Translations under genes and position numbers: made by a program
Shown here: positions 1 through 55,696 of the stretch, in pieces
Position numbering within the stretch: position 1 is the first letter of the stretch
Layout: every line of letters begins with the position of its first letter
Notes under the pieces: model-generated
Database searches by the model: none
Told to the model about the DNA's origin: nothing
What the model saw: the letters and a program-made list of their open reading frames with translations, nothing else
Source of the DNA: Burkholderiaceae bacterium
Lineage (GTDB): Bacteria; Pseudomonadota; Gammaproteobacteria; Burkholderiales; Burkholderiaceae_D
DNA: 55,696 bases
Direction: 5' to 3'
Assembly (NCBI GenBank): GCA_023653025.1
Contig: JAMNXS010000010.1
Span: 1 to 55,696 of the forward strand

Positions 1-3000
1 ACGGGTGGTACGGGTGGTACGGGCGGCACAGGCAATACCGGCACCGAGGCGCCGGGGCCGGTGCCGATCTCGGCGCGCGCCGGTTTCGTCGGTGTCGAAG
101 GACTCGCCGGCGCGCGTGTGCAGGTCCTGCATGATGCGAATGCCAATGGCAGGGCGGATGCAGGTGAAGGGACTTCTGCCGTCCTTACGACGCTCAGTGA
201 CGTCGCTGGCCGAGGCCAGTTCGAGATCCCCGGTGTCCTCCCCAGCCCGGCCTACGAGCCGTCGCGCAGCCTGCTGCAACTGACGTCCAGCGGCGGCACT
301 TCCCGCGTGTTCAGCGTGGCGGAACCTGTCACGGGGCCGGTGCAGTACATGGCTTACCTGACGAAACCCCCGGATCCGGACGCCACCCGATTCGATGCCG
401 TGCTGAGCCCGCTGAGCACGCTCGGCTCCCACCTGCTGCGCACGCAATTGCAGCAGGGCGTGCCCAAGGATTCTGACAGGACCGCGGCCTATGGCGAACA
501 CCTGACCTACGTTGCCGACGCTCTGGGTCTCTCGATGGCCGCCGACCGGCTGATATCGACCGCACCTTCCCAGGGACCGGTACAGCGCCTCATTATCGAG
601 CGCCAGCTAAACGCGCTGCTGGTCACGCTGGTGTCGCTGGACAGCGGCAAGGCCGACAGCAGCGCTGTCGGTTGGTCCGGCTCGATGACCGGCGACATCG
701 CAGCCCGCCTGGGTCACCTGATCGAGCAGCGTGGAAGCATCGATTTCACCGATCCGTCGCAACTGCAGAACGTGCTGGCGAGTGTCCTGCCCTTGTCGAT
801 ACCGGCTGCCCACCTGATTGCAAAGATGCTGGCGCCGCTGACGACAGCATTTGCGATGGCCGCCGACGGCGACTTCGCCGCATCGCAGGCGTCGCAGGAG
901 GTAGTGGATAATCTTGCACGGATCATGGCGGCGCGTCATGCGAACATGATGAACGGCACGCTCGATGACGCAGCGGTTCAGACGGCACTGGGCGCAGAGC
1001 TCGATGCGCTGTCCGCGTCGCTGGCACGCGCCATCCGTGATAGCGACCCCGCCACGCGGGTGATCGTCACCGGCATCAGCACCGGTACAGGCACCGCCGC
1101 CGTCCTCGACCGTAACGCCGACGGCAGACTGGACGCGCAGGACGAGGTCAACGGTGCCCGGGTGGCGGCCAACTTCGGACCCGGCGGCAATGCCGATCCG
1201 GCCGCCGGTCGCGTCGTGATGACTTACCATGTTCTTCCTAACGCGGCACAGCAGCGTCCTCCGTCGACACTGACAGCGGACGATCGCGTCGAGATCGCTG
1301 TCGATACGGCGAACCATGGGGGCAGCATCAATCAGAGCTGGTCGGCTTCCGACGCCAACCTGATGCTCAAGGCCGTGCAGGACAGGGGACTCGTCACCGA
1401 TCTATCGCTGGCGGCAAGGGGCAGGGGAACGAGTCTCCTCGCCAGCATCGGGCGTTTCGCCGACAGCAGCAGGCCGGCTGATCCGGTAACGGCGTCGCTG
1501 GGTGCGGTAACGCTGCTGGCAGCCGGCAGCGCCGCCAGCGCCGACGGTACCTTGGCGAGTACTCTGGATCTCAGGCTTGCGCTAGGCCCGTCCGCAATGG
1601 CCGGCAGCACGGCCGGCGGTCGCATCGCCGGCCCCTTGCGTATCCAGGCGGGTGGCACGCAGTCGCAGGCGAATGCGAACGTGCAATCCATGGTTGCGCT
1701 GGATACCGGCGACGTGGCGCTGGCCGCGACCGGGTTCAAGGCCCAAGCGAAAGCCGACCTCGCGTCCGGAGGGAGTGGCCTGCTGAAAATCGGACAGGCC
1801 GCGCTCGCGAGCCACTCGGCAGCCTCGCGCACGGAAATTACCTTGATGTCCGACGATGGCGGTGTGCGTACCGACCGCGGCATCTCGGCGCTGGCCTCAG
1901 GCACGGGCAGTACTTCGGTCGTCACCGTCCTGTCCGACGACGGTGCGGTTCGAATTGGCGCTGCCACTGCTGCCACGCTGACCGAGCGTGCGATCCATGT
2001 GGTCACCTCGGGCGATGCATGGCGGACCGCGCCCGGTTCGACCACCTTCAGTGTGAGCCGGACCAGTGTCACCATCATCACCGATGCCGGTGCGATCGCG
2101 GCGAGCGATGTCCATGTCATCGCCAGCGGAAGAAATGCCGGTGCGGAACTGACGATGCAATCGACGCAAGGTACGGTGCTGGTTTCCGGCGCTACCCGGG
2201 TGAGCGCCAGCGGCCAGGCTGCCACGGCGTCAGCGACCCTGAGCTCAGCCTCCCAGGTAACGGGCACTGCAGCGATAACCTTGACTGGACCGGTGACGAT
2301 CGATGCCTCTGGTATGGATGCCGTGGCCTTGCTCAACCTGACGACTTCCGCAGGTACATTGAAGGCAGACCGTAACGGGCAGCTGCGCGGCGGCGGTTAC
2401 GCCGCCGACGCCATGGCAACGCTGTCGGCAGCCGGCGGCATCGTGCTGGGCGGCAACTGGGAGCTGGCTGCCAGTGGCTACGCTGCACGTTCCGATCTGG
2501 TGCTTGAACAATTGGCCGACGGCCGGGCCGATCTGGGCATGGGCGCGGTTCAAGTGGTGGCCGGCGGTGCCCTGAGCACTGCGTCCGTCACGCTCCAGCG
2601 GGGTTCGGCAACCACCGGATCGATCGACATCGGCGCCCTGACCCTGAGGGCGGCGGCGAACCGTCTCGATGTGGTGAATCAGCCCGACCAGATCATCGTC
2701 CAGCTCAGGACGGCCGGACAAAATTTCACCGCCGACGGCGAGGTGCGCGTCACCGCTTCCGGGCGTAACAGTGCGGCCAGGCTGGTAGCTGGCAGCGCAT
2801 CGTCCGATGCCACAGTGACGGGGGCTCTGGTCCTGGAGAGCCTCGGCTCCAGCAGCCGCAGCCAAGCCACGATCGATGCCGGCAATGCGCTGGCTATCAC
2901 GCAGGGCCTGACGCTGAGCTCGCAGGGGCCGGGCGGCGTCGCCCTGCTGACACTCACCGCGGCGCACAGCCTCACGACCGGCGCGGCGTCGACGCCAGCG

Positions 3001-6000
3001 CTCGAGGGCAGCATTCGGGTCATTTCTCAGGGGATCAACAGCACGTCCCTGCTGCAGCTGCAGACCGACGGCGCCAGTGTACGCGTCGGGGGCAACGTGG
3101 AGCTTGAGCGCAAGGCACTGACCGGTCCAGTCGACCGCTCTACCCAGATGTCGACCTCCGAGAACACCGCCAGCATCGCCATCGATGGCCGTCTCGCCCT
3201 GCTGGCCGATGCGGCTGCGGTCGGTGGCAAACTGGCGGCCAGCCTGCATGTACGCTCGACGCTCGATGCGGCAGTGATCCCAAGCGGCAGCGTAGCGGAT
3301 GACAAGCTGGCGATCATCAAGACCGGCGGCGAGTTGCGTGTGGAGTCTGCCGGATTCAATACGCTGACCGAATTCCGGGCCAATTTGACCGGCCCCCGCG
3401 CGACGCTAACGACCGGCGGCGACTTCAGCGTCATCTCTACGCGCTCCGGTGACCTGAATGTACGTAATTACGGTGCGATGTCGGATGTCAAGCTAACCGG
3501 CGTGGAGACATCGCTGAAGATAGGCGGCGACTGGGTCGTGCAGAGCTCTCAGGCGCTTGGTATCGCGAAGTCGGGTTTCGTGCTCGACCTGAGAGGCGCC
3601 GCCGCAGGCGCGGTGACGGTCGGTGACGACATACTGGTGTCGGCGCAGGGTTACGGCACGCGCGCGCAGGCGACGCTGCTGGCGGAGAACGTCGCATCAT
3701 CTGGCTGGAACGTGACGGTGACCGATCGCTTCGATGTCAAGGCCTTTGGCCCCGGTGCCTTCGCCTCGCTGAATACGAATGCTCACGTGAGCGCCATCGG
3801 GGCCAGCATCATCGCCGATAGTGGCACCGGTTCGCCCGGAGGCGCTTATGCCGCGCTTACTGCCGGCACGCTCGCAGTCGGTTCACAAGCCCCGGTCTTT
3901 CTTGATGCGGTACGGTCGGGTGACATTGCGGTGCTGAACATGACGCAAGGCGCCGATGGTGCCAGCTACCAGCTCGGCTCTCCCGACAGTTCCGGAGCCG
4001 TTTATCTTAATACGGGCAAGTCCTTTGCGAAATTCATCGATATCGATTTCGCGAATGTCGGCCGTACCCACGTCGCCATCGGCGTCGAAGATCGCGACCT
4101 TAGCGCTGCCCAGGCTCGCACCAGCATGCTGACCATGGAAGGGCTCCGCCTCGGCCGGGACTGGCTCGTACTGACCGAAAGCCTTGCCCTCGAAAGCGCA
4201 TTCAAAGAGACTTTGTCGTTTCCGTCATCCAGCCTTGATCAATTCCTGACGAACGCCAGCAGCAAGCTTTCCGAGTCGGCGGGCATGCACTGGGGCTTCG
4301 TGAATTCCTCGGATCCCTTAGTCCGCGCTGGCTACTACTTGGCCTTCGATTACGACAAGAATGGACTCACTGGTCTCGTTTACCTCGGCGACGTACCGAA
4401 TTTGCCAACCACCGCATTCACCATTCCCTCCGGCACCGGCTTCAATCCCTACACGCCCACTCGTATCGAAGTGCTGGATGGCCGCTCCGAAACCAATTCC
4501 TCAGACAGCGTGGTTCGAGCCGATGTCGTACTGGAAGCAGCCGTTGTCGAGAAACGCCAGCTCGTATTCGACTCCACGAACGCAATGGTCTTGCTGAACC
4601 GCCTCGATATCGACGCAGATCATATGGGCATAGCGGAGGTCACGCTTTCCGGTACAGCGAATGCTGAATCGACCGTTGTGATTGCAAGCCAAACGCTGGT
4701 GGATGCCAGCGGCACGAAAAGCGCTTCGTCGCTGAGTGTGACATCGAGAGCTCGAACGAACCAGACAGGGCAAGGCGTGGTGGACTTGGGTACCGGGATA
4801 ACCGTCCGGGCTTTGGGCGACCAGTCATCCAGCACGGCCAATCTGTCGGGAGATAAGTACCTTGTGGCGATGAATGGCAATCTCAACGTGGAGGCTGTCG
4901 GCACCGAGAGCGTGGCCTCGCTGCGGATGAACACCTCCTCATCGACTGCCGTGTCTTTGCTCCCCGTCGATGGTCTCTTCGCGCACGCTTCCGGGCGGCT
5001 TGCGAAAGCGGAATTCAGCTTTGCGAGTGCATCAAGCGAAGCCAAAGGCAACTTCACGGTGAACGGCAGGCTCTCGGCCAAGGCATCGGTAGAAGCGGCG
5101 GAGTCCGTGGTGACAGTGGATGCCCGCTACGGCACGATCAAGATCGGCAATGTCGAAACCTTTGCCGAGATGGCAGGCGCTCGGGCGACGACCACTCTCG
5201 GCAACCCCGACCTCGCACTGCAACAGGAGTCATACATCGAGATCGGGCAGCTGCTGACGCGTGCCTCCGGCGCAGAAGCCCGGGCAAAAACATCACTAAC
5301 AGCCACGTCGTTGATCGGCGTCGGCAACCTCACTGCCGAGGCGACCGGTGACGTGAGCAAAGCGGATATCGAGATGCTGTCCGTATTCGCTCCCGCCGAC
5401 CTCGGCGCGATCCGCGTGACGGCCGCCGGCGTCGATGCCCATGCCGGTGTCAAGGTCAAACTGGGCTTCCTGGATAAACAGACGATTTCAGGCGAGGTAG
5501 ACGGCACTCTGGTCGCCATTGGTTTTGAGCCCGTTGTGTACGGCAGGGGCTCCGTCACGGTCACGGGTGGTACGCAACTTTTGGCGTCCGGGTTCGAGGC
5601 CGATGCCAAACTGGATTTGCGAGCACTGGGAGGTAATGTCACGATCACGGGCGGTAATTTATCCGTGACTGCAGCCGGCGCCAAGACCGAGGCATCAGCC
5701 GTTGCCGAAGCGGGTACCGTCGACGTCTACCAGGTGGGTATGCAGAGCTCAACAGTGATTGCCGTCGCAGGCAGGGTCGCCGTTGAAGGAAGTGCCTTGG
5801 CTCGTGCGGTGGGTGACCATGGTCTGGCAAAAATTTCTATCAAATCGAATGGGAGCGAAGCAAAGATCGCGCGCGACCTCGTGCTCAGTGCTGAGGCTAA
5901 CCATGCTGTTGCCTTCGCAGACATCATTTCTTTTTCGGTGGATGACGCGCGCATAGCCGGCACGAGCTTGCCGGATGCGCCGGTTCGCGTGGGCGGCTCA

Positions 6001-7527
6001 GTTTCCGTGAGCGCTTCCGGTGCCCAATCCGCCGCATCTTCGTTGCTATTCTCCGGGCGAGGGCAGGTCAACATTGGTGGCGCCCTGAGCGTCGAGGCGG
6101 CGGGCGGCAATGCAAGCAGCGCGGTAACGCTGGACGCACGCCATGGCACGATCAAGACAGGCGGGGAAGCTCTCGTTGCTGCCATCGGGTCCGCCAGTCA
6201 GGCCAGGCTTGTCGCCAAGACCGGTGCCCCGGCAGCCGCAATTCCAGACGAGGGCAGCATCAGTTTTGACAAAGGACTGGCGTTGCTGGCGTCGGGCAGC
6301 AGTTCGCTGGCCAATGCTGAAATCAAGGCGGATTCGAACGGCAAAGTTGCTGTTGGCGGCGCGTTGAAGATCGGCGCGCACGGCGACCAGTCCAGCGCGT
6401 CGCTGACGTTGTCGGCTGCCGGTGCCGACACGGGCGGCACCGGGGGCGCGACGCTGGTGAGGGCGCTCGCCGTCACCGGACCGTTGGAAGTCGAGGCAAC
6501 GGCTGCGGCTGCGGTCGCCAGTGCGCAGCTGGAGGCCAGCAGCGGTTCGTGGTCGACTCAAGGTATCGCATTGCTGGCTTTGGGAGCGACGAGCGAGGCG
6601 CGGCTGGATGCGAGCAAATTCACTTCGGCGGTCATCAGTGGCAATTTGCGCGTGCTCGCCACCGGCGACGGGGCCACGGCGGAGGTGACGCTGAAGGCGA
6701 CGGACTCCGATCTCTCGCTGACCGGTGGTGCGGTGCTGCTGGCCTCGGGAGATGGCAGTACGGCGAAAGCTACCTTGACTGCGAGCGCAGGCAAGGTGGT
6801 GATTGGCACCGATGTCAATGTGGGCTCGCTCGGTGAGGGCAGCCTCGCGAGCCTGATCATCGAGCAACGCACGACGAGCGATGTGTCGCTGGCCGCAAGC
6901 CTCCGGCTGACGGCGGACAGTGGCGTCAATTCCGCCGTCGGTGCCACGGCGCGCGCCGAGCTCGCGCTGGGCAAGCTGGGCTTGGCAGAGACTGATCTGT
7001 CGATGGATGCCGTGCAGGTCGGCGACAAGGCCGGCGCATCGCTGCAGCTCAACGCCGCCGGTGGCAAGCTTCAACTCGGCGGCGAGGGACAGGCCGGCAC
7101 GGCCGAACTAAACCTGCTGGGCAGGCATCTCGTCGACGACGTGTCGATATCCTTCGAGGGCAGTGCCGGGAAAGCCGTGATCAACCTGCAGGGACAGGAT
7201 GTGAATGCCACCACCGCGGGCAGCATCGGGCTGGTCGAGATCGACGGCTTCCGCATTGCGCAGGACGTGATCCGGTTCCACTCGGAGGGCAGGCCCATGA
7301 CGACCGTGGACTCCGGCCAGGGCACCGGCGAAGCGGCCTTCCGCAGCGAAGCGCTCGCCTACTTTGCCGATACCGCGGTGGGCAGAGGGCTGTTTGCCGA
7401 GAGCGTCGGCGATTCGATGTATGTCGCCTACGATTACGATGGCAACGGGATCGACGGCATCGTCGTCCTCGACGACGTCACGCTGACCCAGTTCCGCCAG
7501 TACCTGACCACTACCGGCCTCGGCTGA
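1..7527 (+). CDS. Giant repetitive surface/secreted protein, 5'-truncated
   Basis: The frame is open from base 1, so the gene begins upstream; at least 2508 codons are visible. The visible N-terminus is a Thr-Gly-Gly linker. Two Asp/Asn-rich calcium-loop-like motifs follow: DANANGRADAGE near nt 133 and DRNADGRLDAQDE near nt 1108. Most of the rest is a degenerate repeat of about 30-40 residues with alternating Ala/Ser/Gly/Thr and GG turns, of the form L-x-A-S-G-x-x-A-x-A-x-L-x-A followed by V-x-x-GG, as expected for a beta-strand-repeat or beta-helix adhesin. There are essentially no cysteines. A module ending YYLAFDYDKNGLTGLVYLGDV-like (nt about 4030-4400) recurs at the very C-terminus as MYVAYDYDGNGIDGIVVL (nt about 7250-7500). 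The C-terminal form resembles tails of type I-secreted RTX-like or 'bluetail' surface proteins; secretion by that route is inference. No function beyond a surface/adhesin role can be claimed. Confidence 0.8.
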   Translation, partial: TGGTGGTGGTGNTGTEAPGPVPISARAGFVGVEGLAGARVQVLHDANANGRADAGEGTSAVLTTLSDVAGRGQFEIPGVLPSPAYEPSRSLLQLTSSGGTSRVFSVAEPVTGPVQYMAYLTKPPDPDATRFDAVLSPLSTLGSHLLRTQLQQGVPKDSDRTAAYGEHLTYVADALGLSMAADRLISTAPSQGPVQRLIIERQLNALLVTLVSLDSGKADSSAVGWSGSMTGDIAARLGHLIEQRGSIDFTDPSQLQNVLASVLPLSIPAAHLIAKMLAPLTTAFAMAADGDFAASQASQEVVDNLARIMAARHANMMNGTLDDAAVQTALGAELDALSASLARAIRDSDPATRVIVTGISTGTGTAAVLDRNADGRLDAQDEVNGARVAANFGPGGNADPAAGRVVMTYHVLPNAAQQRPPSTLTADDRVEIAVDTANHGGSINQSWSASDANLMLKAVQDRGLVTDLSLAARGRGTSLLASIGRFADSSRPADPVTASLGAVTLLAAGSAASADGTLASTLDLRLALGPSAMAGSTAGGRIAGPLRIQAGGTQSQANANVQSMVALDTGDVALAATGFKAQAKADLASGGSGLLKIGQAALASHSAASRTEITLMSDDGGVRTDRGISALASGTGSTSVVTVLSDDGAVRIGAATAATLTERAIHVVTSGDAWRTAPGSTTFSVSRTSVTIITDAGAIAASDVHVIASGRNAGAELTMQSTQGTVLVSGATRVSASGQAATASATLSSASQVTGTAAITLTGPVTIDASGMDAVALLNLTTSAGTLKADRNGQLRGGGYAADAMATLSAAGGIVLGGNWELAASGYAARSDLVLEQLADGRADLGMGAVQVVAGGALSTASVTLQRGSATTGSIDIGALTLRAAANRLDVVNQPDQIIVQLRTAGQNFTADGEVRVTASGRNSAARLVAGSASSDATVTGALVLESLGSSSRSQATIDAGNALAITQGLTLSSQGPGGVALLTLTAAHSLTTGAASTPALEGSIRVISQGINSTSLLQLQTDGASVRVGGNVELERKALTGPVDRSTQMSTSENTASIAIDGRLALLADAAAVGGKLAASLHVRSTLDAAVIPSGSVADDKLAIIKTGGELRVESAGFNTLTEFRANLTGPRATLTTGGDFSVISTRSGDLNVRNYGAMSDVKLTGVETSLKIGGDWVVQSSQALGIAKSGFVLDLRGAAAGAVTVGDDILVSAQGYGTRAQATLLAENVASSGWNVTVTDRFDVKAFGPGAFASLNTNAHVSAIGASIIADSGTGSPGGAYAALTAGTLAVGSQAPVFLDAVRSGDIAVLNMTQGADGASYQLGSPDSSGAVYLNTGKSFAKFIDIDFANVGRTHVAIGVEDRDLSAAQARTSMLTMEGLRLGRDWLVLTESLALESAFKETLSFPSSSLDQFLTNASSKLSESAGMHWGFVNSSDPLVRAGYYLAFDYDKNGLTGLVYLGDVPNLPTTAFTIPSGTGFNPYTPTRIEVLDGRSETNSSDSVVRADVVLEAAVVEKRQLVFDSTNAMVLLNRLDIDADHMGIAEVTLSGTANAESTVVIASQTLVDASGTKSASSLSVTSRARTNQTGQGVVDLGTGITVRALGDQSSSTANLSGDKYLVAMNGNLNVEAVGTESVASLRMNTSSSTAVSLLPVDGLFAHASGRLAKAEFSFASASSEAKGNFTVNGRLSAKASVEAAESVVTVDARYGTIKIGNVETFAEMAGARATTTLGNPDLALQQESYIEIGQLLTRASGAEARAKTSLTATSLIGVGNLTAEATGDVSKADIEMLSVFAPADLGAIRVTAAGVDAHAGVKVKLGFLDKQTISGEVDGTLVAIGFEPVVYGRGSVTVTGGTQLLASGFEADAKLDLRALGGNVTITGGNLSVTAAGAKTEASAVAEAGTVDVYQVGMQSSTVIAVAGRVAVEGSALARAVGDHGLAKISIKSNGSEAKIARDLVLSAEANHAVAFADIISFSVDDARIAGTSLPDAPVRVGGSVSVSASGAQSAASSLLFSGRGQVNIGGALSVEAAGGNASSAVTLDARHGTIKTGGEALVAAIGSASQARLVAKTGAPAAAIPDEGSISFDKGLALLASGSSSLANAEIKADSNGKVAVGGALKIGAHGDQSSASLTLSAAGADTGGTGGATLVRALAVTGPLEVEATAAAAVASAQLEASSGSWSTQGIALLALGATSEARLDASKFTSAVISGNLRVLATGDGATAEVTLKATDSDLSLTGGAVLLASGDGSTAKATLTASAGKVVIGTDVNVGSLGEGSLASLIIEQRTTSDVSLAASLRLTADSGVNSAVGATARAELALGKLGLAETDLSMDAVQVGDKAGASLQLNAAGGKLQLGGEGQAGTAELNLLGRHLVDDVSISFEGSAGKAVINLQGQDVNATTAGSIGLVEIDGFRIAQDVIRFHSEGRPMTTVDSGQGTGEAAFRSEALAYFADTAVGRGLFAESVGDSMYVAYDYDGNGIDGIVVLDDVTLTQFRQYLTTTGLG

Positions 7528-29652: not shown

Positions 29653-29916
29653 GTTGTCCTCAACCGGAGGTGTTGATCGATCCCGCCTTGTTGTCGATGC
29701 CTGAATCGGCTTGCGCGCCGCCTGCACTGCTCTGGCACACCGGAGTGTGTCGCACGTCGTCGGAAGGGAGTGAATGCAGGAGGGGTCGCGGCGGAAGTCG
29801 GGTGAATCATACCTGATTTTCCCGGCCTGTGGTCCTTTCACCGGGAAGGCTTGCGCCGTCGCATACAATGCCGGAAAAAACCCTCCCCGTTTCCCCGGGG
29901 CCGTCCCCGCGCCACG

Positions 29917-32577
29917 ATGTCCGAACTTCCGCACCCGATTCCTCCCGGCCCCGACTTCTGGGCCGGGGTCGCCCGGCGGCTGCTGGCCCGGGGCGGCAGC
30001 ACGGCGGACCTGTCCGAACGGCTAGTGCTGGTGCCCACCTATGCCCACATCGCCCTGCTGCGCGATGCCCTGTCGGCCGAGCTCGGCGGCAGCTTCATTC
30101 CGCCGCAGATCCGCACTCTCGATTCCTGGCTCGAGCAGCAGCCGCCGGATGCCGACGCCGGTCCGCCGGCCACGCCGACCGAACGCCTGATGACGCTGTA
30201 TGCGTCGCTGCGCGACATCGGCTGGCTGAAGAAGCTGTTCGCCGCGCGCCGCAATACCGACCTGCTGCCGCTGGCCCAGACCCTGATCCAACTCGGCGAC
30301 GAACTCGGCGCGGCCCTGCTGCCGGCGGCCCTCGCGCAGCCTGACGAAGCCGAAGACCGCTGGCGCGCCGCGCTAAGGCAGCTCTCGCCGCGCGCCGCGG
30401 CCTTGCTGTCGGACGAAGCGCAACTGGTCTGGCAGCTGTGGCAGGTCGAGCGCGACGAGCGCGATCCCGGGCTGGCGCGCCACCGCGCGCTGCAGCGCGC
30501 GGCCGCGGCCGCCCCCTGCCCGCTGGTCTGGTGCTCGCCGTGGGAGCCGGATGCGCTCGAGCAGGCCTTCCTCGAGCGCTGGGCGCAGCAGCAGCCGGTC
30601 GAGATGATCGCGATCGACTGGTCGGCCGCTGCGCTGCCGGGACTGCTGGCGGCCGCCTGGCCCGAACTGCTCGACGACGGCAACGCGCCCCCGCTGCCGC
30701 TCCGCCTGCCGGAGGGACTGCTGCTGCTCGAGGCCGCCGGCATGGAACATGAGGCACAGGCCGCGGCGCAGACCATCGTCGACTGGCTGGCGCAGGGCGT
30801 GCAGCGCATCGCGCTCGTCCCGCAGGATCGCGTGGTCGCGCGGCGGCTGCGCGCGCTGCTCGAGCGCGCCGGCATCGTTGTCGCCGACGAGACCGGCTGG
30901 AAGCTATCGACCACCCGCGCGGCGACCGCGCTGAATACGTGGATCGAACTGGTGGCCTCGCGCGGCGACCCGGAGCGCCTGTTGGATTTCCTGAAATCTC
31001 CGTTCATCGCCCATCCGGCGCTCGCCGACCCTGCGCAGCGCGGTGCGCTCGAGGCCGCGCTGGTCGGTGCCGGCGTGGGCGCGGGCTGGGAGGCGCTGGC
31101 CCGCGCACTTGCCGAGCAGCCGCAGGCGCAGGGACTGGTCGAAGCAATCGCGCGCGAGGCCCATCGTTATGCCGCGCGCAAGCCGGTCGCGGCCTGGGTC
31201 GATGCGACGCTGGCCGCCTTCGATGCGCTCGGCAGCGCGGCCGCGATCGCGCAGGACAAGGCCGGCGCGCAGGTGCTGGAGATGCTGGGCAAGCTCGCGC
31301 GCGACTGCGAGCGCCTCGAACCTCCGTTTTCGCTCGGCGAATGGCGCGTGCTGCTCGACCTGCAGATGGAGCAAACGGTCTTCGTCGCGCCGCATGACGA
31401 CCGCCGCGTCGTCATGGTGCCGCTCAACGGCAGCATGCTGCGCGACTTCGACGCAGCCATCGTCGTCGGCGCCGATGCCGAGCATTTGCCCTCGCGCCCG
31501 GCCGAGGTACTGTTCTTCGCCAACTCAGTGCGTCGCGAGCTCGGCCTCGAGACGCGCGAGAGCCGGCAGCGGCAGCAGTTGCGCGAGTTTGCCTCGCTGC
31601 TGCTCGGCTGCCGACGCGTCGTACTGTCGTGGCAGGCCCGGCGCGACGGCGAGCCGGTCGCGCCCAGCCCGTGGATACAGCGGCTCGAACTGGCGCTCGA
31701 GGCCGCGCGCCTGCCCCGGCTGCCGCGCCACCAGCCCCGGCTGGCCCAGGTCCTGCTCGAGCCCGCGCCAGCGTCGATGCCGGCGCCCGCGGCGGCCGCG
31801 CTGCTGCCATCCAGTCTGTCGGCCAGCGGCTACAACAGCCTCGTGGCTTGTCCCTACCAGTTCTTCGCGTCCCGCATGCTCGGGCTGCGCGCAGCGGACG
31901 AGCTGAGCGAGCTGCCCGAGAAGCGTGACTACGGCGACTGGCTGCACCAGATTCTGCAGCGCTACCACGAGGCGCTGGCGCTGTCGCCGGTGCCGCGTGA
32001 GCAGCGCGGCGCGCTGATGGCCCGCATCAGCGACGACACCTTTGGCCCGGTGCTGACCCGCAACCCGGCCGCGCTCGGTTTTGCCGCGCGCTGGGCCGCC
32101 AGGCGCGACGCCTATGTCGCCTGGGCCAACGACCTGGAAGACGACGGCTGGTCGTTCGCCTTCGGCGAGGAGCGCATGACGCACCCGCTGGCATGGGAGG
32201 GCGGCGCGCTGCGCCTGATCGGCTCGCTGGACCGGGTCGACCGCAATGCCGCCGGCGAGGCCATGGTGCTCGACTACAAGACTTCCCGCCGCACTGCGCT
32301 GCAGGACCGCTTGAAGCGGCGCGAGGATCACCAACTGCCGTTCTATGCGCTGCTGCTCGATCCGGCACCGCTGCGCGCCGCCTACGTTGCGATCGACGAA
32401 GAGACGCCGGCCACCGTGGAGGCAGAGCAGCTCGACGCCTGGCGCAGTGCGCTACACGCACAGATCCGGGACAACATGGCGGCCATCTCTGCCGGCGCGC
32501 CGCTGCCTGCCTCCGGTCATGCCGGCAGCTGCGCGTGGTGCGCGATGCGCGGCCTGTGCCGCAAGGGGGCATGGTGA
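29917..32577 (+). CDS. AddB-like Fe-S PD-(D/E)XK nuclease
   Basis: The 886-residue protein begins with a helicase-like fold lacking clear ATPase motifs ([28 protein letters not shown]-type segments) and ends in a RecB-family nuclease. The nuclease shows GSLDRVD (Asp772), VLDYKTS (Asp786, Lys788) and QLPFYALLL. Four cysteines are arranged as in AddB and Cas4: Cys645 (ACPYQFF) upstream of the nuclease and Cys872, Cys875 and Cys881 (C-x2-C-x5-C) at the C-terminus, predicting a 4Fe-4S staple. With the next gene it would form an AddAB-type complex for resecting double-strand breaks. The start ATG 29917 is a family-guided guess; TACAAT at 29864 may be the -10 box. Its stop overlaps the helicase start. 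Confidence 0.85.
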
Positions 32578-35500
32578 GCGCCGGGCCCGTCTCGCTGATG
32601 GCCAACGGTCGGGCCGTCGATGCCGATGGCTTCGTCCAGCTCGCCTGCGATCCCGCGCGCTCGGTGCTGGTCGAGGCCTGTGCCGGCAGCGGCAAGACCT
32701 GGTTGCTGGTGTCGCGCATGCTGCGCCTGCTGCTCGACGGCGCGCAGCCCGGCGAACTGCTGGCCATTACCTTCACCCGCAAGGCAGCCGGCGAGATGCG
32801 CGAGCGCCTCGTGCAGCTGTTGCGCGAGCTGGCGCTCGAGCCTGACGACGCGAAGGTCGCCGATGCACTGGTGCAGCGCGGTCTGGCGCCGGAGCGCGCG
32901 CGCGCCGCGCTGCCCGCAGCCCGCAGCCTGTATGCGCGGGTGCTGGCCAGCCCGCACGGACTGTCGGTCGATACCTTCCACAGCTGGTTCATCCGCCTGC
33001 TGCAGATCGCCCCCCTGTCCGCCGGCGTGCCGCATGGCGCGGCGCTCGACGACAGCGCCGCCGAGATCGCGGACGCGGCCTGGCTGCGCTTTATGCAGTC
33101 GCTGAACCAGCCCGACCATGCATCGCTGCGCGCGGCGCTGATGATCGTCTACGACATCGCCGGCGACTGGAGCGGCAAGGAACTGGTCGACGCCTTTCTT
33201 GCCAAGCGCGCTGAATGGGAAATCGCGCGCCAGCATGGCGATCCGCTGCAGGCGCTGCTCGATCTGTGCGGCGACGACGCTCAGCGCGATGCGAGGCTGT
33301 CCTTGTGGGACGACGCGGCGCTGACTGCGCGCATCGCGCGCATGGCGCGCCTGCTCGGCGCCGGCGCGGGTAAGCAGCAGGAAGCCGCCGTCGCCATCGA
33401 AGCCGCGCTCGGCACGGGGCCGGGCCTCGAGGCTTTCGACGCGCTGTGTGCCGCCTTTCTCACGCAGAAGGGCGAGCCGCGCTCGATGAAACTGACCAAG
33501 TCGCAGATGTCGGCGCTGTCGCCCGACGAGCAGGATGCGTTCATGAGCGAATGGTCGGCGCTGGCCGGGGCGATGGTGCTGCTGAAGCGGCGCAGCGCCG
33601 AGCTGGCGGTGCGCCGGCTGAACGAAGCGATGTTTGCCATCGGCGAAGCCGTGATCGGGCATGTCGATGCCATCAAGGCCGAGCGCAGGACGATGGATTT
33701 TGCCGACCTCGAATTGCACGCATGGCGGCTGCTGACCAGCGCCGAGCTGGCAGCCTATCTGCACGCCCGCATCGACGCCCGCTACAAGCACATCCTGATC
33801 GACGAGTTCCAGGACACCAACCCGCTGCAATGGCAGATCGTGCGCGCCTGGCTCGACGCCTACGACGGAGATGGCCAGCGTCCGAGCGTGTTCATCGTCG
33901 GCGACCCCAAGCAGTCGATCTACCGCTTCCGTCGCGCCGAGCCGCGCGTGTTCGATTCGGCGCGCGCGCTGCTGATGGAACAGCAGGCAGCCGACCTGCG
34001 CACCAGCATCACGCGCCGTAACGGCCGCCGCATCGTCGAGGTGCTGAATGCGGCGATGCAGGGCAATCCGCTGTATGCGGCACAGGACACGCTGGCCGGC
34101 GCCGAGGGCGCGGTGTGGCGGCTGCCGCTGGCGGTTGCCGACGCGCCCGCCGCTTCCGGCGGCGGCATGGATGAAAGCGCGGGCGCAGACGAAGGCTGCT
34201 TTGCGCTGCGCGACCCGTTGCGGGCCTTCCCCATCGAGGAAGAAGACCTGCGGCGTCAGCGCGAGGGCGCACTGGTCGGGCGCGCATTGCGACAGGCGCG
34301 CGCGCTCGGACCGGACGGCCAGCCCCTGCCATGGTCGCAGATGATGATCCTCGTGCGCAGCCGCACCCATCTCGCCGGCTACGAGCGCGGCTTGCGCGAG
34401 GCAGGCGTGCCCTTCGTATCCAGCCGCGCCGGCGGCCTGCTCGATACGCTCGAGGCGCTCGACCTGATCGCGCTGCTGCGCTGGCTGACGATGTCGGGCG
34501 ACGACCTCGCGTTCGCGCAGGTACTGAAATCGCCGATTGCGGGCGCGACCGACGACGATCTGATCGCGCTGGCCGCGCGCGCCGGCGAGGGCAGCTGGTG
34601 GCAGCGGCTGCTGAACATGACTGGCGAGGGCGCCGGTTCGCCGGCGCTGTCGCGCATCCGTCCGCTGCTGGAGAGCTGGGTAAAGGTGTCGCAGCATCTG
34701 CCGGTGCACGACCTGCTGGACTGCATCGTCCACGAGGGCGAGCTGATACAGCGCTATGCGCAATGCGCGCCGGCCGAGTCGCGCGCACAGGTGCTGGGTA
34801 ATCTCGAAGCCTTCCTTGCGCTATCGCTCGAGCTGGATGCGGGGCGCTACCCCAGCCTCGTGCGCTTCCTCGACCACCTGCGGCGCAAGCAGCGCGGCAG
34901 CGAACAGGACGCGCCTGACGAGGCCGATATCGACGCTGCGTTCGATGCGGTGCGCATCCTGACCATTCACGGCGCGAAGGGTCTCGAGGCCGAGGTGGTG
35001 GCGATCATGGGCGCGAACCACAGCGACGCGGGCAAGGACAAGGCCGGCATTCTTTGCGACTGGCCGCAGGATGCGATCGCGCCCACGCACTTCTCGGTGT
35101 TCGGCAGGTCGTCCGAGCGTGGCCACGCACGCTCGCGGCTGTTCGAGCAGGAGGAAGCCTTCCGCGTGCAGGAGAACTGGAATCTGCTGTATGTCGCGGC
35201 CACGCGCGCCCGGCGGCTGCTGATCGTCAGCGGCGTGCACGATACGCGTGCAGGCGGCGTCAAGCCCGGCAGCTGGTACGAGCGCCTGCAGGAGGTGGAC
35301 GAATTCGTCCCCGACGAACTTCCGGGCGCCGCCGGCGCCGCCGGCGCGGCGTTCGCGCTGACGCTGTTCCGTCCGCAGGCCATGTCTGCGCCGCCGGCGC
35401 GCGATCGTAGCGAGGACACCGAGGCCACACTCGAGGGCAAGCGCCTGCACGCGCTGATGGAGCGGCTGACGAATCCGGGCCTGTGGCCGGTGAACATGCC

Positions 35501-35900
35501 GCCCGTGCCCGTCGTCGCTCGCTGGCTGGGTTGTGCGGAGAGCGAGGCGGAGGTCGCCTGCGCGCAGGCGACCTGCATTTTGTCGCAGCCGGCTTTGCAG
35601 CGTTTCTTCGATCCGTCCCAGCATGTATTCGCGCGCAACGAGATGGAACTGGTCCATCGCGGCGAACTGATGCGCGTGGACCGGCTGGTGATGTTCGACG
35701 ACGCGCTGTGGATACTCGACTACAAGCGCAACCTCTACGAGTGGCAGCAGTCAGACTATCAGCAGCAGCTTGCACGGTACCGGAATGCCTGTCTGGAACT
35801 GTTCAGCGGAAAGCCGGTATCGACCGCACTGATCACTGTCGATGGACAGTTGTGGGTGGCCGACGGCGACGGCGGCGATGCCGCACGCTCGGTGGCCTGA
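32571..35900 (+). CDS. AddA-like UvrD-type helicase-nuclease
   Basis: The 1109-residue SF1A helicase has a C-terminal nuclease. Walker A is ACAGSGKTW (residues 36-44), motif Ia ITFTRKAAGEM, motif II DEFQDTNPLQW, motif III IVGDPKQSIYRFRRA, motif V LTIHGAKGLEAEVV and motif VI NLLYVAATRARRLLIV. The C-terminal RecB-type nuclease carries GELMRVDRLV and WILDYKRN near residues 1031-1053, with a following Q-x-x-x-Y (QQQLARY). This is the AddA/RecB plan. AAGGGGG precedes ATG 32571, which overlaps the nuclease stop by seven bases; GTG 32574 would also fit. The pair probably forms one repair machine; a Chi-like site cannot be inferred. Confidence 0.88.
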   Translation: MVSAGPVSLMANGRAVDADGFVQLACDPARSVLVEACAGSGKTWLLVSRMLRLLLDGAQPGELLAITFTRKAAGEMRERLVQLLRELALEPDDAKVADALVQRGLAPERARAALPAARSLYARVLASPHGLSVDTFHSWFIRLLQIAPLSAGVPHGAALDDSAAEIADAAWLRFMQSLNQPDHASLRAALMIVYDIAGDWSGKELVDAFLAKRAEWEIARQHGDPLQALLDLCGDDAQRDARLSLWDDAALTARIARMARLLGAGAGKQQEAAVAIEAALGTGPGLEAFDALCAAFLTQKGEPRSMKLTKSQMSALSPDEQDAFMSEWSALAGAMVLLKRRSAELAVRRLNEAMFAIGEAVIGHVDAIKAERRTMDFADLELHAWRLLTSAELAAYLHARIDARYKHILIDEFQDTNPLQWQIVRAWLDAYDGDGQRPSVFIVGDPKQSIYRFRRAEPRVFDSARALLMEQQAADLRTSITRRNGRRIVEVLNAAMQGNPLYAAQDTLAGAEGAVWRLPLAVADAPAASGGGMDESAGADEGCFALRDPLRAFPIEEEDLRRQREGALVGRALRQARALGPDGQPLPWSQMMILVRSRTHLAGYERGLREAGVPFVSSRAGGLLDTLEALDLIALLRWLTMSGDDLAFAQVLKSPIAGATDDDLIALAARAGEGSWWQRLLNMTGEGAGSPALSRIRPLLESWVKVSQHLPVHDLLDCIVHEGELIQRYAQCAPAESRAQVLGNLEAFLALSLELDAGRYPSLVRFLDHLRRKQRGSEQDAPDEADIDAAFDAVRILTIHGAKGLEAEVVAIMGANHSDAGKDKAGILCDWPQDAIAPTHFSVFGRSSERGHARSRLFEQEEAFRVQENWNLLYVAATRARRLLIVSGVHDTRAGGVKPGSWYERLQEVDEFVPDELPGAAGAAGAAFALTLFRPQAMSAPPARDRSEDTEATLEGKRLHALMERLTNPGLWPVNMPPVPVVARWLGCAESEAEVACAQATCILSQPALQRFFDPSQHVFARNEMELVHRGELMRVDRLVMFDDALWILDYKRNLYEWQQSDYQQQLARYRNACLELFSGKPVSTALITVDGQLWVADGDGGDAARSVA

Positions 35901-50662: not shown

Positions 50663-53359
<2,697 letters not shown>

Positions 53360-53558: not shown

Positions 53559-54869
53559 ATGAGCCTCATGGAAATCAAGGTCCCGGACATCGGTGATTTC
53601 AAGGAAGTGGAAGTCATCGAATTGCTCGTCAAGCCGGGCGACACAGTCAAGGCCGAACAATCGCTGATCACGGTCGAGTCCGACAAGGCCAGCATGGAGA
53701 TCCCGAGCAGCGCTGCCGGCATCGTCAGGGAGCTGAAGGTCAGCATAGGCGACAAGGTGGCGGAGGGATCGCTGGTGCTGCTGCTGGAGGCGGCTGACGT
53801 TGCTGCCGCGCCGGCGCCGGCGCCGGCTCCCGCTTCTGCACCTGCACCTGCCTTTGCCGCCGCACCCTCCGCCGCACCCTCCGCAGCGCCCGCCGCAGCG
53901 CCTGCCCCGGTGCAGGCGGCTGCGCCGGTAGCCGCTGCACCGGCCGCCGACGGCCAGAAACCGCATGCGTCGCCGTCGGTGCGCAAGTTCGCGCGCGAAC
54001 TGGGAGTGGACCTGTCGCGCGTGACCGGCTCCGGCCCGAAAGGCCGCATCCTGACCGAAGACGTGCAGGGCTTCGTCAAGGGCGTGATGGCCAGCGGTTC
54101 GGCCGCACCGGCTGCCGGCGGCGGGGCGGCGCTCGGGCTCTTGCCGTGGCCGTCGCTGGACTTCTCGAAGTTCGGCGAGACCTCACTCGAGTCGCTGTCG
54201 CGCATCAAGAAGATCAGCGGCCCGAACCTGCATCGCAACTGGGTGATGATCCCGCACGTGACACAGTTCGACCAGGCTGACATCACCGAGCTCGAGGAAT
54301 TCCGCAAGAGCGCCAACGAGTCGCTGGCGAAATCCGGCGTCAAGCTGACCATGCTCGCCTTCGTGATCAAGGCCAGCGTTGCCGCGCTGAAGAAATTCCC
54401 GGCGTTTAATTCCTCGCTCGACGCGAACGGCGAGAACCTGATCCTCAAGCACTTCTACCACATCGGCTTTGCTGCCGACACGCCGAACGGCCTCGTGGTG
54501 CCGGTCGTGAAAAACGCCGACCAGAAAGGTATCGCGCAGATCGCGAAGGAAATGGGCGAGCTGTCCGGGCAGGCGCGCGAAGGCAAGCTCAAGCCGGCCG
54601 ACATGCAGGGTGCGACCTTCACCATCTCGTCGCTGGGCGGCATCGGCGGCACGTCGTTCACGCCGATCATCAATGCGCCGGAAGTCGCGATCCTCGGCCT
54701 GTCGAAGTCCGAGATCAGGCCGGTCTGGGACGGCAAGGCTTTCGTGCCGCGCCTGATGCTGCCGATGTCGCTGTCCTACGACCACCGCGTGATCGATGGC
54801 GCGCTAGGCGCACGCTTCACCGTGTACCTCGCCGAGGTGCTGGCCGACCTGCGCAAGACCCTGCTGTAA
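53559..54869 (+). CDS. aceF: Pyruvate dehydrogenase E2 (dihydrolipoyl acetyltransferase)
   Basis: The 436-residue core protein of the complex has a single lipoyl domain (residues 1-80, lipoyl Lys43 in [11 protein letters not shown]), an Ala/Pro-rich flexible linker (about 84-130), a peripheral-subunit-binding domain ([18 protein letters not shown], then [11 protein letters not shown]), and the catalytic domain with His409 and Asp413 in [13 protein letters not shown]. coli AceF has three lipoyl domains, so this is the short form. GGAGAA lies 10 bases before the start. The gene is followed after eight bases by the BPH-type hydrolase. Confidence 0.96.
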
Positions 54870-54877
54870 GGCTGGCG

Positions 54878-55447
54878 ATGACAACCTGCGTCGTCGTCCG
54901 CAAGGACGATCAGATAGCGATCGCCGCCGACTCGTTGGTGACCTTTGGCGACACTCGGCTTTCGCACGCCTACGAGACGAACGAAAAGATCGTCGAGATC
55001 AACGGCTCGTACCTGTCGCTCTCCGGCTCCACCGCGCACTTCCCGGTGATGAAGAAGCTGCTGGCCGACATGGACGACGAGTGCAGGCTCGGCTCGCGCG
55101 ACGAGGTGTTCGATACCTTCACGCGCGTACACCAGATCCTGAAGGACAAGTACTTCCTCAACGTCAAGGAGGAAGAGGACGATCCCTACGAGTCGTCGCA
55201 GATCACCACATTGATCGCCAATCCGCACGGCATCTTCGGCGTGTACTCGTATCGCGAAGTATTCAGCTTCGACCGCTTCTGGGCCATTGGCAGCGGCAAG
55301 TGCTTCGCGCTAGGCGCGATGTATGCCGCCTACGAACGCGAGTCGTGCGCGCACGCCATTGCGGAGATCGGCGTGCACGCCGGAGCGGAGTTCGACAAGA
55401 ACTCGGCGCTTCCTTGCCGAACGATCAGTTTTCCGATGAAAAGATAA
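54878..55447 (+). CDS. Proteasome/HslV-like Ntn hydrolase, BPH type
   Basis: The 189-residue protein resembles HslV and proteasome beta subunits: MTTCVVVRKDDQIAIAADS aligns with HslV MTTIVSVRRNGHVVIAGDG. Removal of Met would expose Thr2 as the N-terminal nucleophile; Asp18 (AADSLVTFGDT) and Lys37 (NEKIVEI) sit at the partner positions, and GSGKCFALGAMYAAYE matches the IGSGG-type segment of HslV. This matches the betaproteobacterial proteasome homologue (BPH), known as a tetradecameric double ring. It lies eight bases after aceF and 11 before the lipoyl-E3 gene, so it is part of the pdh operon. No HslU-, Clp- or ARC-like ATPase is in the window. Substrate and activity are unknown. Confidence 0.85.
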   Translation: MTTCVVVRKDDQIAIAADSLVTFGDTRLSHAYETNEKIVEINGSYLSLSGSTAHFPVMKKLLADMDDECRLGSRDEVFDTFTRVHQILKDKYFLNVKEEEDDPYESSQITTLIANPHGIFGVYSYREVFSFDRFWAIGSGKCFALGAMYAAYERESCAHAIAEIGVHAGAEFDKNSALPCRTISFPMKR

Positions 55448-55458
55448 CGGAGCCCCTC

Positions 55459-55696
55459 ATGAGCCTCATCGAAATCAACGTACCCGACATCGGTGACTTC
55501 AAGGAAGTCGAAGTGATCGAGCTGCTGGTCAAGCCCGGAGACACCATCCAGCCGGAGCAGTCGCTGATCACGGTCGAATCCGACAAGGCCAGCATGGAAA
55601 TCCCGGCCTCCGCCGGCGGCGTGGTCAAGGAGCTGAAGGTCAAGCTCGGCGACAAGGTGTCCAAAGGCTCGCTGCTGCTGCTGCTCGAGGCGACCG
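55459..55696 (+). CDS. lpdA: Lipoyl domain of dihydrolipoamide dehydrogenase (E3), 3'-truncated
   Basis: Only 79 codons are in the window. They encode a lipoyl domain, [19 protein letters not shown] then [11 protein letters not shown] with the lipoyl Lys43, about 80% identical to that of AceF by eye. In betaproteobacteria the third pdh gene is a lipoyl-E3 fusion, which is the likely identity; a second E2 cannot be excluded because no FAD-binding sequence is reached. GGAG precedes the ATG by eight bases. Confidence 0.8.
   Translation, partial: MSLIEINVPDIGDFKEVEVIELLVKPGDTIQPEQSLITVESDKASMEIPASAGGVVKELKVKLGDKVSKGSLLLLLEAT

Follow-up and report, generated by a model that had tools for sequence, protein, structure and literature searches.

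Does a proteasome-like hydrolase encoded inside a pyruvate dehydrogenase (PDH) operon serve PDH, or does the operon simply provide its gene with a steady expression supply? The question is raised by a gene located at positions 54878-55447 (forward strand) of the window, i.e. the whole stretch of 55,696 nucleotides analyzed here, which was initially annotated as a BPH-type relative of HslV and the proteasome whose physiological link to PDH was open. The question was posed and partly answered in 2018. Structures of BPHs (Betaproteobacteria proteasome homologues) have been solved, the accessible part of the literature gives no substrate, and operon neighbors constitute the main published clue. 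In the accessible portion of Fuchs 2018 (PMC5777263), three prevailing contexts are named, i.e. argG, the PDC operon (C. metallidurans) and Hsp33, and are tied to stress by the authors. The same portion reports that pull-downs with the tagged C. metallidurans BPH contained neither PDC subunits nor HslU. Both the placement of BPH in a PDH operon and the pull-down with PDH subunits suggested by the initial annotation have therefore been in print since 2018, the latter with no PDC subunits found.

The BPH gene and its operon

The reading frame 54878..55447 (forward strand) starts with ATG and encodes a proteasome-like N-terminal-nucleophile hydrolase of 189 aa, recognized by Pfam, phmmer and Foldseek, whose N-terminal sequence is MTTCVVVRKDDQ. 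It is preceded on the same strand by aceE (50663..53359), encoding a pyruvate dehydrogenase E1 of the homodimeric type (898 aa; TIGR00759, 1465.1 bits against a cut-off of 859.9; Pfam PDH_E1_M), and by aceF (53559..54869), encoding the dihydrolipoyl acetyltransferase E2 (436 aa; TIGR01348, 651.1 bits against a cut-off of 552.1) with its lipoyl, E3-binding and catalytic Pfam domains. It is followed by the start of lpd, the lipoyl-domain E3 (55459..55696, forward strand). The contig stops at 55696, so that E3 is visible over just 79 codons from its start; these match Pfam Biotin_lipoyl. The end of aceF at 54869 is separated from the BPH start by 8 nt, and the BPH end from the E3 ATG at 55459 by 11 nt, in agreement with the gaps originally reported, and the contiguous aceE-aceF-BPH-lpd cluster stands as described. 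In a congener (L087), aceF, BPH and lpd follow each other in the same order and the lipoyl-E3 is complete at 589 aa. The frame is a genuine gene, conserved in this congener and matching its family well beyond chance.

Gaps were scanned in 50 PDH-linked loci, where the E2 end could be located in 39 and the E3 start in 49. They are short and some genes overlap (-4 nt), a geometry compatible with co-transcription and coupling. The predicted Shine-Dalgarno energies range from -12.1 to +1.2 kcal/mol for BPH (50 loci) and from -10.3 to -0.4 kcal/mol for E3 (49 loci, mostly near -5.8). The stoichiometric expression with PDH that had been claimed is not an observation, the predicted strength of the BPH ribosome site varying widely over the 50 loci.

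Two other regions of the window deserve mention. Positions 1-7527 (forward strand) carry a 2508-codon reading frame, open at the contig start, that yielded no Pfam match (E up to 1e-6) and no NCBIfam match (E up to 1e-5); a Thr-Gly-Gly run and aspartate-rich motifs resembling calcium sites within its first 500 residues suggest a large surface protein. At 29851-35900 (forward strand), overlapping genes encode a PD-(D/E)XK nuclease and a UvrD-type helicase, which we take to resemble an AddAB-like recombination pair.

Family assignment

The assignment to the BPH family, already proposed from the sequence, was confirmed in several ways. The best phmmer match among PDB sequences is Cm-BPH (5ovu, E 2.7e-78), followed by 5ovs (8.5e-41); the next one, an HslV, is found at 0.042, so that strong matches are limited to the two solved BPHs (5ovu; 5ovs/5ovt). 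The Pfam Proteasome profile scores 27.3 bits against a cut-off of 22.4. An AlphaFold2 monomer model, computed from an alignment of 30 sequences (that of the window and those of 29 other loci), reached a pLDDT of 83.4. When submitted to Foldseek, ranks 1 to 6 were all occupied by BPH chains, with 5ovu at the top (TM 0.88, 62% identity) and Td-BPH next.

Other identities were considered and rejected. The HslV profile (TIGR03692) scores 24.1 bits, far below its cut-off of 157.75, and the hslV gene of the same genome adjoins hslU on contig C7, the BPH gene being located on C18. The archaeal 20S proteasome beta profile (TIGR03634) scores 22.2 bits against a cut-off of 224. Nor is there any sign of a catalogued defense system: with E values up to 1, no PADLOC profile matched, and the top hit among PHROG families is described as 'peptidase HslV family' (2.7e-17). 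An HslU-like gene was also searched in the vicinity of 171 BPH loci, HslU being the sole query class, and a single weak match (E 1e-5) was obtained; the region following E3 in the genome of the window lies beyond the contig. The window BPH is an ordinary BPH in an already known operon setting.

Active site and pore loop

Residues were counted in an alignment of 122 BPHs, leaving out six distant homologues (L255, L258-L262). The predicted nucleophile Thr2 (codon 54881..54883, forward strand), which becomes Thr1 once Met is removed, is a threonine in 103 rows and a serine in 19, and a threonine in all 50 PDH-linked rows. Asp18 (54929..54931) and Lys37 (54986..54988), on the same strand, are present in 122/122 rows. 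The three residues are intact, as first noted, and match the Thr-1, Asp-17 and Lys-37 active site given for Td-BPH in the accessible portion of Fuchs 2018 (PMC5777263). The window BPH displays the complete BPH signature, counted at window positions 2, 18, 37, 50 and 139 of the 122 rows: Thr1 directly after Met without a propeptide, together with the equivalents of Asp17, Lys37, Gly50 and Ser139. Ser1 is taken as a mark of BPHs from outside Betaproteobacteria, a rule to which two BPHs may be exceptions: L174 (genome G380), from the order of the window, is a Ser1 BPH and L256 (G185), from outside this order, a Thr1 BPH.

Asp18, Lys37, Gly50, Lys89, Glu105 and Arg126 are invariant in the 122 rows whatever the gene context, as are Gly118, Gly138, Gly140, Gly146, Ala162 and Pro179. 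Glu105 belongs to an acidic pore loop (residues 96-109, VKEEEDDPYESSQI, 55163..55204, forward strand) and is followed by Ser106, kept in 96% of the rows. This stretch contains a mean of 5.41 to 6.7 acidic residues across five context groups; with an average of 5.82, the 50 PDH rows possess the long acidic pore loop as well. The AlphaFold2 confidence is low at blocks 91-110, the pore loop region, and the loop of Td-BPH is partly disordered according to the available part of the structural report (PMC5777263).

These invariant residues bear on an alternative in which BPH is not a general protease, acting instead as an amidase, transpeptidase or ligase of narrow specificity whose acidic pore loop grips one conserved peptide or ligand. 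Lys89, Glu105 and Arg126 are shared by all 122 BPHs and the HslV of the same genome differs at all three columns, with Arg at those of Glu105 and Lys89 and Gly at that of Arg126 (rough 5-row alignment). In the accessible portion of PMC5777263, BPHs acted neither on casein nor on a broad set of peptides in spite of a free Thr1 to which epoxomicin binds, and the BPH-related connectase is a ligase according to the part of PMC8665760 at hand. Conversely, the closed barrel and the proteasome-like epoxomicin adduct (PMC5777263, same portion) suit a peptidase, and this alternative comes without a candidate ligand. We regard it as unlikely. The label 'peptidase' is nevertheless unproven, since both BPHs assayed in that portion showed no proteolytic activity (PMC5777263).

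Gene contexts across lineages

BPH matches were found in 44/370 genomes of the class, 152/399 of the order and 85/294 of the family, counts in which the genome of the window and a small number of remnant or broken genes are included. Contexts were assigned by tblastn of family representatives within 1500 nt of BPH. The resulting 171 loci comprise 93 PDH, 23 Hsp33, 17 Arg, 15 Rib and 23 other contexts; the set is uneven, as it contains the best 80 named matches to an alignment headed by the window protein, all 80 of which are PDH-linked. E2 is located upstream and E3 downstream of BPH in 92 of the 93 PDH-linked loci, the remaining one ending 4 nt past the match. The picture is more varied among 64 loci of the order outside the family, picked to cover every family with a BPH match: 11 are PDH-linked, 23 lie beside Hsp33, 16 are of the Arg type and 14 are found in other contexts. 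At the family level, with samples of 1 to 4 loci per family, 28 families of the order carry BPH and just 7 of these have it beside PDH (f1, f2, f169, f175, f184, f185 and f196). In the sampled loci of the other 21, it is located beside Hsp33, ArgG/YajQ or other genes. Tabulation of the neighborhoods thus goes against the PDH-specific physiological link put forward initially.

This distribution also has to be set against a quality control role, in which BPH would degrade PDH subunits once damaged (e.g. by oxidation or carbonylation) or excess E2 and E3 left unassembled, and its operon position would match supply to demand. The short gaps and the constant placement between E2 and E3 in PDH-linked loci are in its favor, and carbonylation of the PDC is discussed as a possible link in the accessible part of Fuchs 2018 (PMC5777263). 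In that same part, however, carbonylation patterns were unaltered by BPH and the pull-downs were devoid of PDC subunits (PMC5777263), and the 21 families with BPH elsewhere point in the same direction. Together with the losses described below, these elements make the quality control role quite improbable, and a PDH-specific role of BPH in general is unlikely.

Further contexts became apparent in this survey. In the Arg context, yajQ (DUF520) is found less than 200 nt after BPH in 15/17 loci (L173, L174, L178, L180, L192, L197-L199, L207-L209, L211, L212, L216 and L217), argG-BPH-yajQ being a recurring order. In the Ser1 group, from genomes of the class outside the order, 15/16 loci (L231-L244 and L246) display BPH between ribD and ribE, behind nrdR, mostly followed by ribBA and ribH; gene identities were confirmed by Pfam on L239. 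The nrdR-ribD-BPH-ribE arrangement is a recurrent context additional to the three named in the accessible portion of Fuchs 2018 (PMC5777263). A riboflavin context was found neither in that portion nor by a literature search joining BPH, proteasome, HslV and riboflavin. Finally, G802, a metagenome-assembled genome of the family, carries two BPH genes (L264 and L265) on different contigs, which are 73% and 77% identical to that of the window over nearly their full length; the pair could stem from two copies of the operon or from mixed binning.

Entry into the PDH operon

The number of times BPH entered the PDH operon was considered from trees of BPH and RpoB; the former were built without an HslV outgroup and consequently have no HslV root. 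In a quick tree of 122 rows, the PDH rows require one change, with a group support of 50. When f185 was constrained with the Hsp33 rows, the log-likelihood was 11.24 higher (p-AU 0.683). In a more careful tree of 90 rows, from which nine long or divergent rows had been removed and in which 27 of the 50 PDH rows were used, a branch supported at 100/98 separates all 27 from the other rows, and the f185-with-Hsp33 alternative was marginally rejected (p-AU 0.0485). The RpoB tree covers 29 of 30 genomes, one having no RpoB match. The 10 PDH-linked genomes group together, weakly with f185 (62/41), and 8 of them, f185 excluded, group at 99/98. Next to this group, a clade holds 10 of the 11 Hsp33-linked genomes (100/99), the eleventh being placed elsewhere. 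In a tree of 24 rows, i.e. five fewer, four of them PDH-linked, the PDH group is supported at 81/69; the 62/41 of the 29-row tree is the value retained here.

Gene context goes with the clade. These trees are most simply explained by vertical inheritance and one move of BPH into the gap between aceF and lpd, and the PDH neighborhood used as a clue to BPH function may accordingly reflect a single phylogenetic event. A second, independent entry in f185 is possible; if it took place, it would favor a functional tie between BPH and PDH, and it constitutes a further argument for the quality control role outlined above.

Losses within the genus

Among 21 genomes of the genus of the window, aceF was found in 19. 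A full BPH follows it in 10 (one of them cut by a contig end), a remnant in three and none in the remaining six. The three remnants consist of BPH codons 163-189 alone (27 codons, 3' end) between aceF and lpd; in the six genomes devoid of BPH, lpd starts 18-110 nt past aceF. The aceE gene is kept upstream of aceF, and the E3 start is retained, in all 9 genomes without a full BPH. The same situation extends to more distant relatives, as lpd directly follows aceF in 20 of 23 BPH-lacking genomes from the family or the order in which an aceF locus was present.

The aceF (E2) tree of the genus requires 4 changes in BPH state, and at least three sorts of residual stretches are found at the BPH-less sites. 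The breakpoints of the remnants L247, L248 and L249 (genomes G940, G1006 and G994) are common to the three, yet these genomes do not form one clade in the aceF tree. Considering the sorts of leftover stretches and the 4 changes, the loss of BPH in this genus occurred either by several deletions or by fewer deletions combined with some gene exchange.

An obligate PDH accessory protein can be rejected, as BPH is absent or a remnant in 9/19 congeneric genomes with aceF. More broadly, the repeated disappearance of BPH from PDH operons of the window's own genus, with the PDH genes kept, argues against the PDH-specific link and against PDH quality control, and these natural deletions make the operon neighborhood a weaker indication of a tie to PDH. 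The survey also supplies related genomes that either have or lack BPH within this operon. A mild tie to PDH, by expression or function, is possible, because BPH in this branch is seen either in the aceF-lpd slot or gone.

The remnants in congeners and the patchy presence in the family (the 85/294 genomes mentioned above) could also designate the window BPH as a vestigial passenger that was once a protease, is being lost and serves no present function in this organism. The comparison with L087 opposes this explanation: the two proteins are 87% identical, with a dN of 0.072 and a dS of 0.707 (dN/dS about 0.1), and dN/dS is lower still in the other BPH pairs with an estimable dS; in wider pairs, no ratio was obtained owing to saturation of the synonymous sites. 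BPH, where present, is under purifying selection. A dN so far below dS speaks against a decaying passenger in the organism of the window, the active-site residues are intact, and this explanation is very improbable.

Proposed role

The reading that we favor, with a probability of roughly 70%, is that the window BPH works as a threonine peptidase independent of ATP, its gene residing in the PDH operon for steady expression. An ancestral BPH gene would have moved between aceF and lpd in the ancestor from which this branch of the order descends; as a consequence, the aceE-aceF-lpd transcript probably serves for BPH translation. Removal of Met1 would expose Thr1, which is exposed in other BPHs according to the published work. 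As the ring published for other BPHs suggests, the protein would assemble into a tetradecameric double ring with 14 threonine active sites facing an inner chamber. No ATPase would be needed for the entry of peptides or of chains that are unfolded locally, and the long acidic pore loop, in which Glu105 is invariant, would hold them. The operon position would amount to a steady expression supply, with no implication of PDH as a substrate or partner.

The alternative of a narrow-specificity enzyme can be phrased at the same scale. One conserved peptide or ligand would be read by Glu105-Ser106, Lys89 and Arg126, and BPH would perform one job across lineages, unrelated to its neighbors, while its gene moves among housekeeping operons (PDH, Hsp33, ArgG-YajQ and, in the Ser1 branch, nrdR-ribD-BPH-ribE) chosen for steady expression. 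This extended form is likewise rather doubtful next to the ATP-independent peptidase favored here. Features common to all sampled BPHs, i.e. the pore loop, Lys89, Glu105 and Arg126, are a better lead to function than the neighboring genes.

Comparison with known systems

The HslV (ClpQ) of the same genome, encoded on contig C7, matches the HslV family over the full model length and shares an N-terminal Thr with the window BPH. It differs by its 20% identity to the latter (rough alignment), by its adjoining hslU gene and by pore-loop columns devoid of an acidic stretch. Cm-BPH (Cupriavidus metallidurans Rmet_1198, PDB 5OVU) belongs to another genus, and no difference in kind was found between this protein and the window BPH at the 62% identity of their Foldseek alignment. 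Td-BPH (Thiobacillus denitrificans, PDB 5OVS/5OVT) is alike in fold and active site, with 38-40% identity in Foldseek alignments; its gene is located in the argG context according to the accessible portion of Fuchs 2018 (PMC5777263), whereas that of the window BPH is found in the PDH context.
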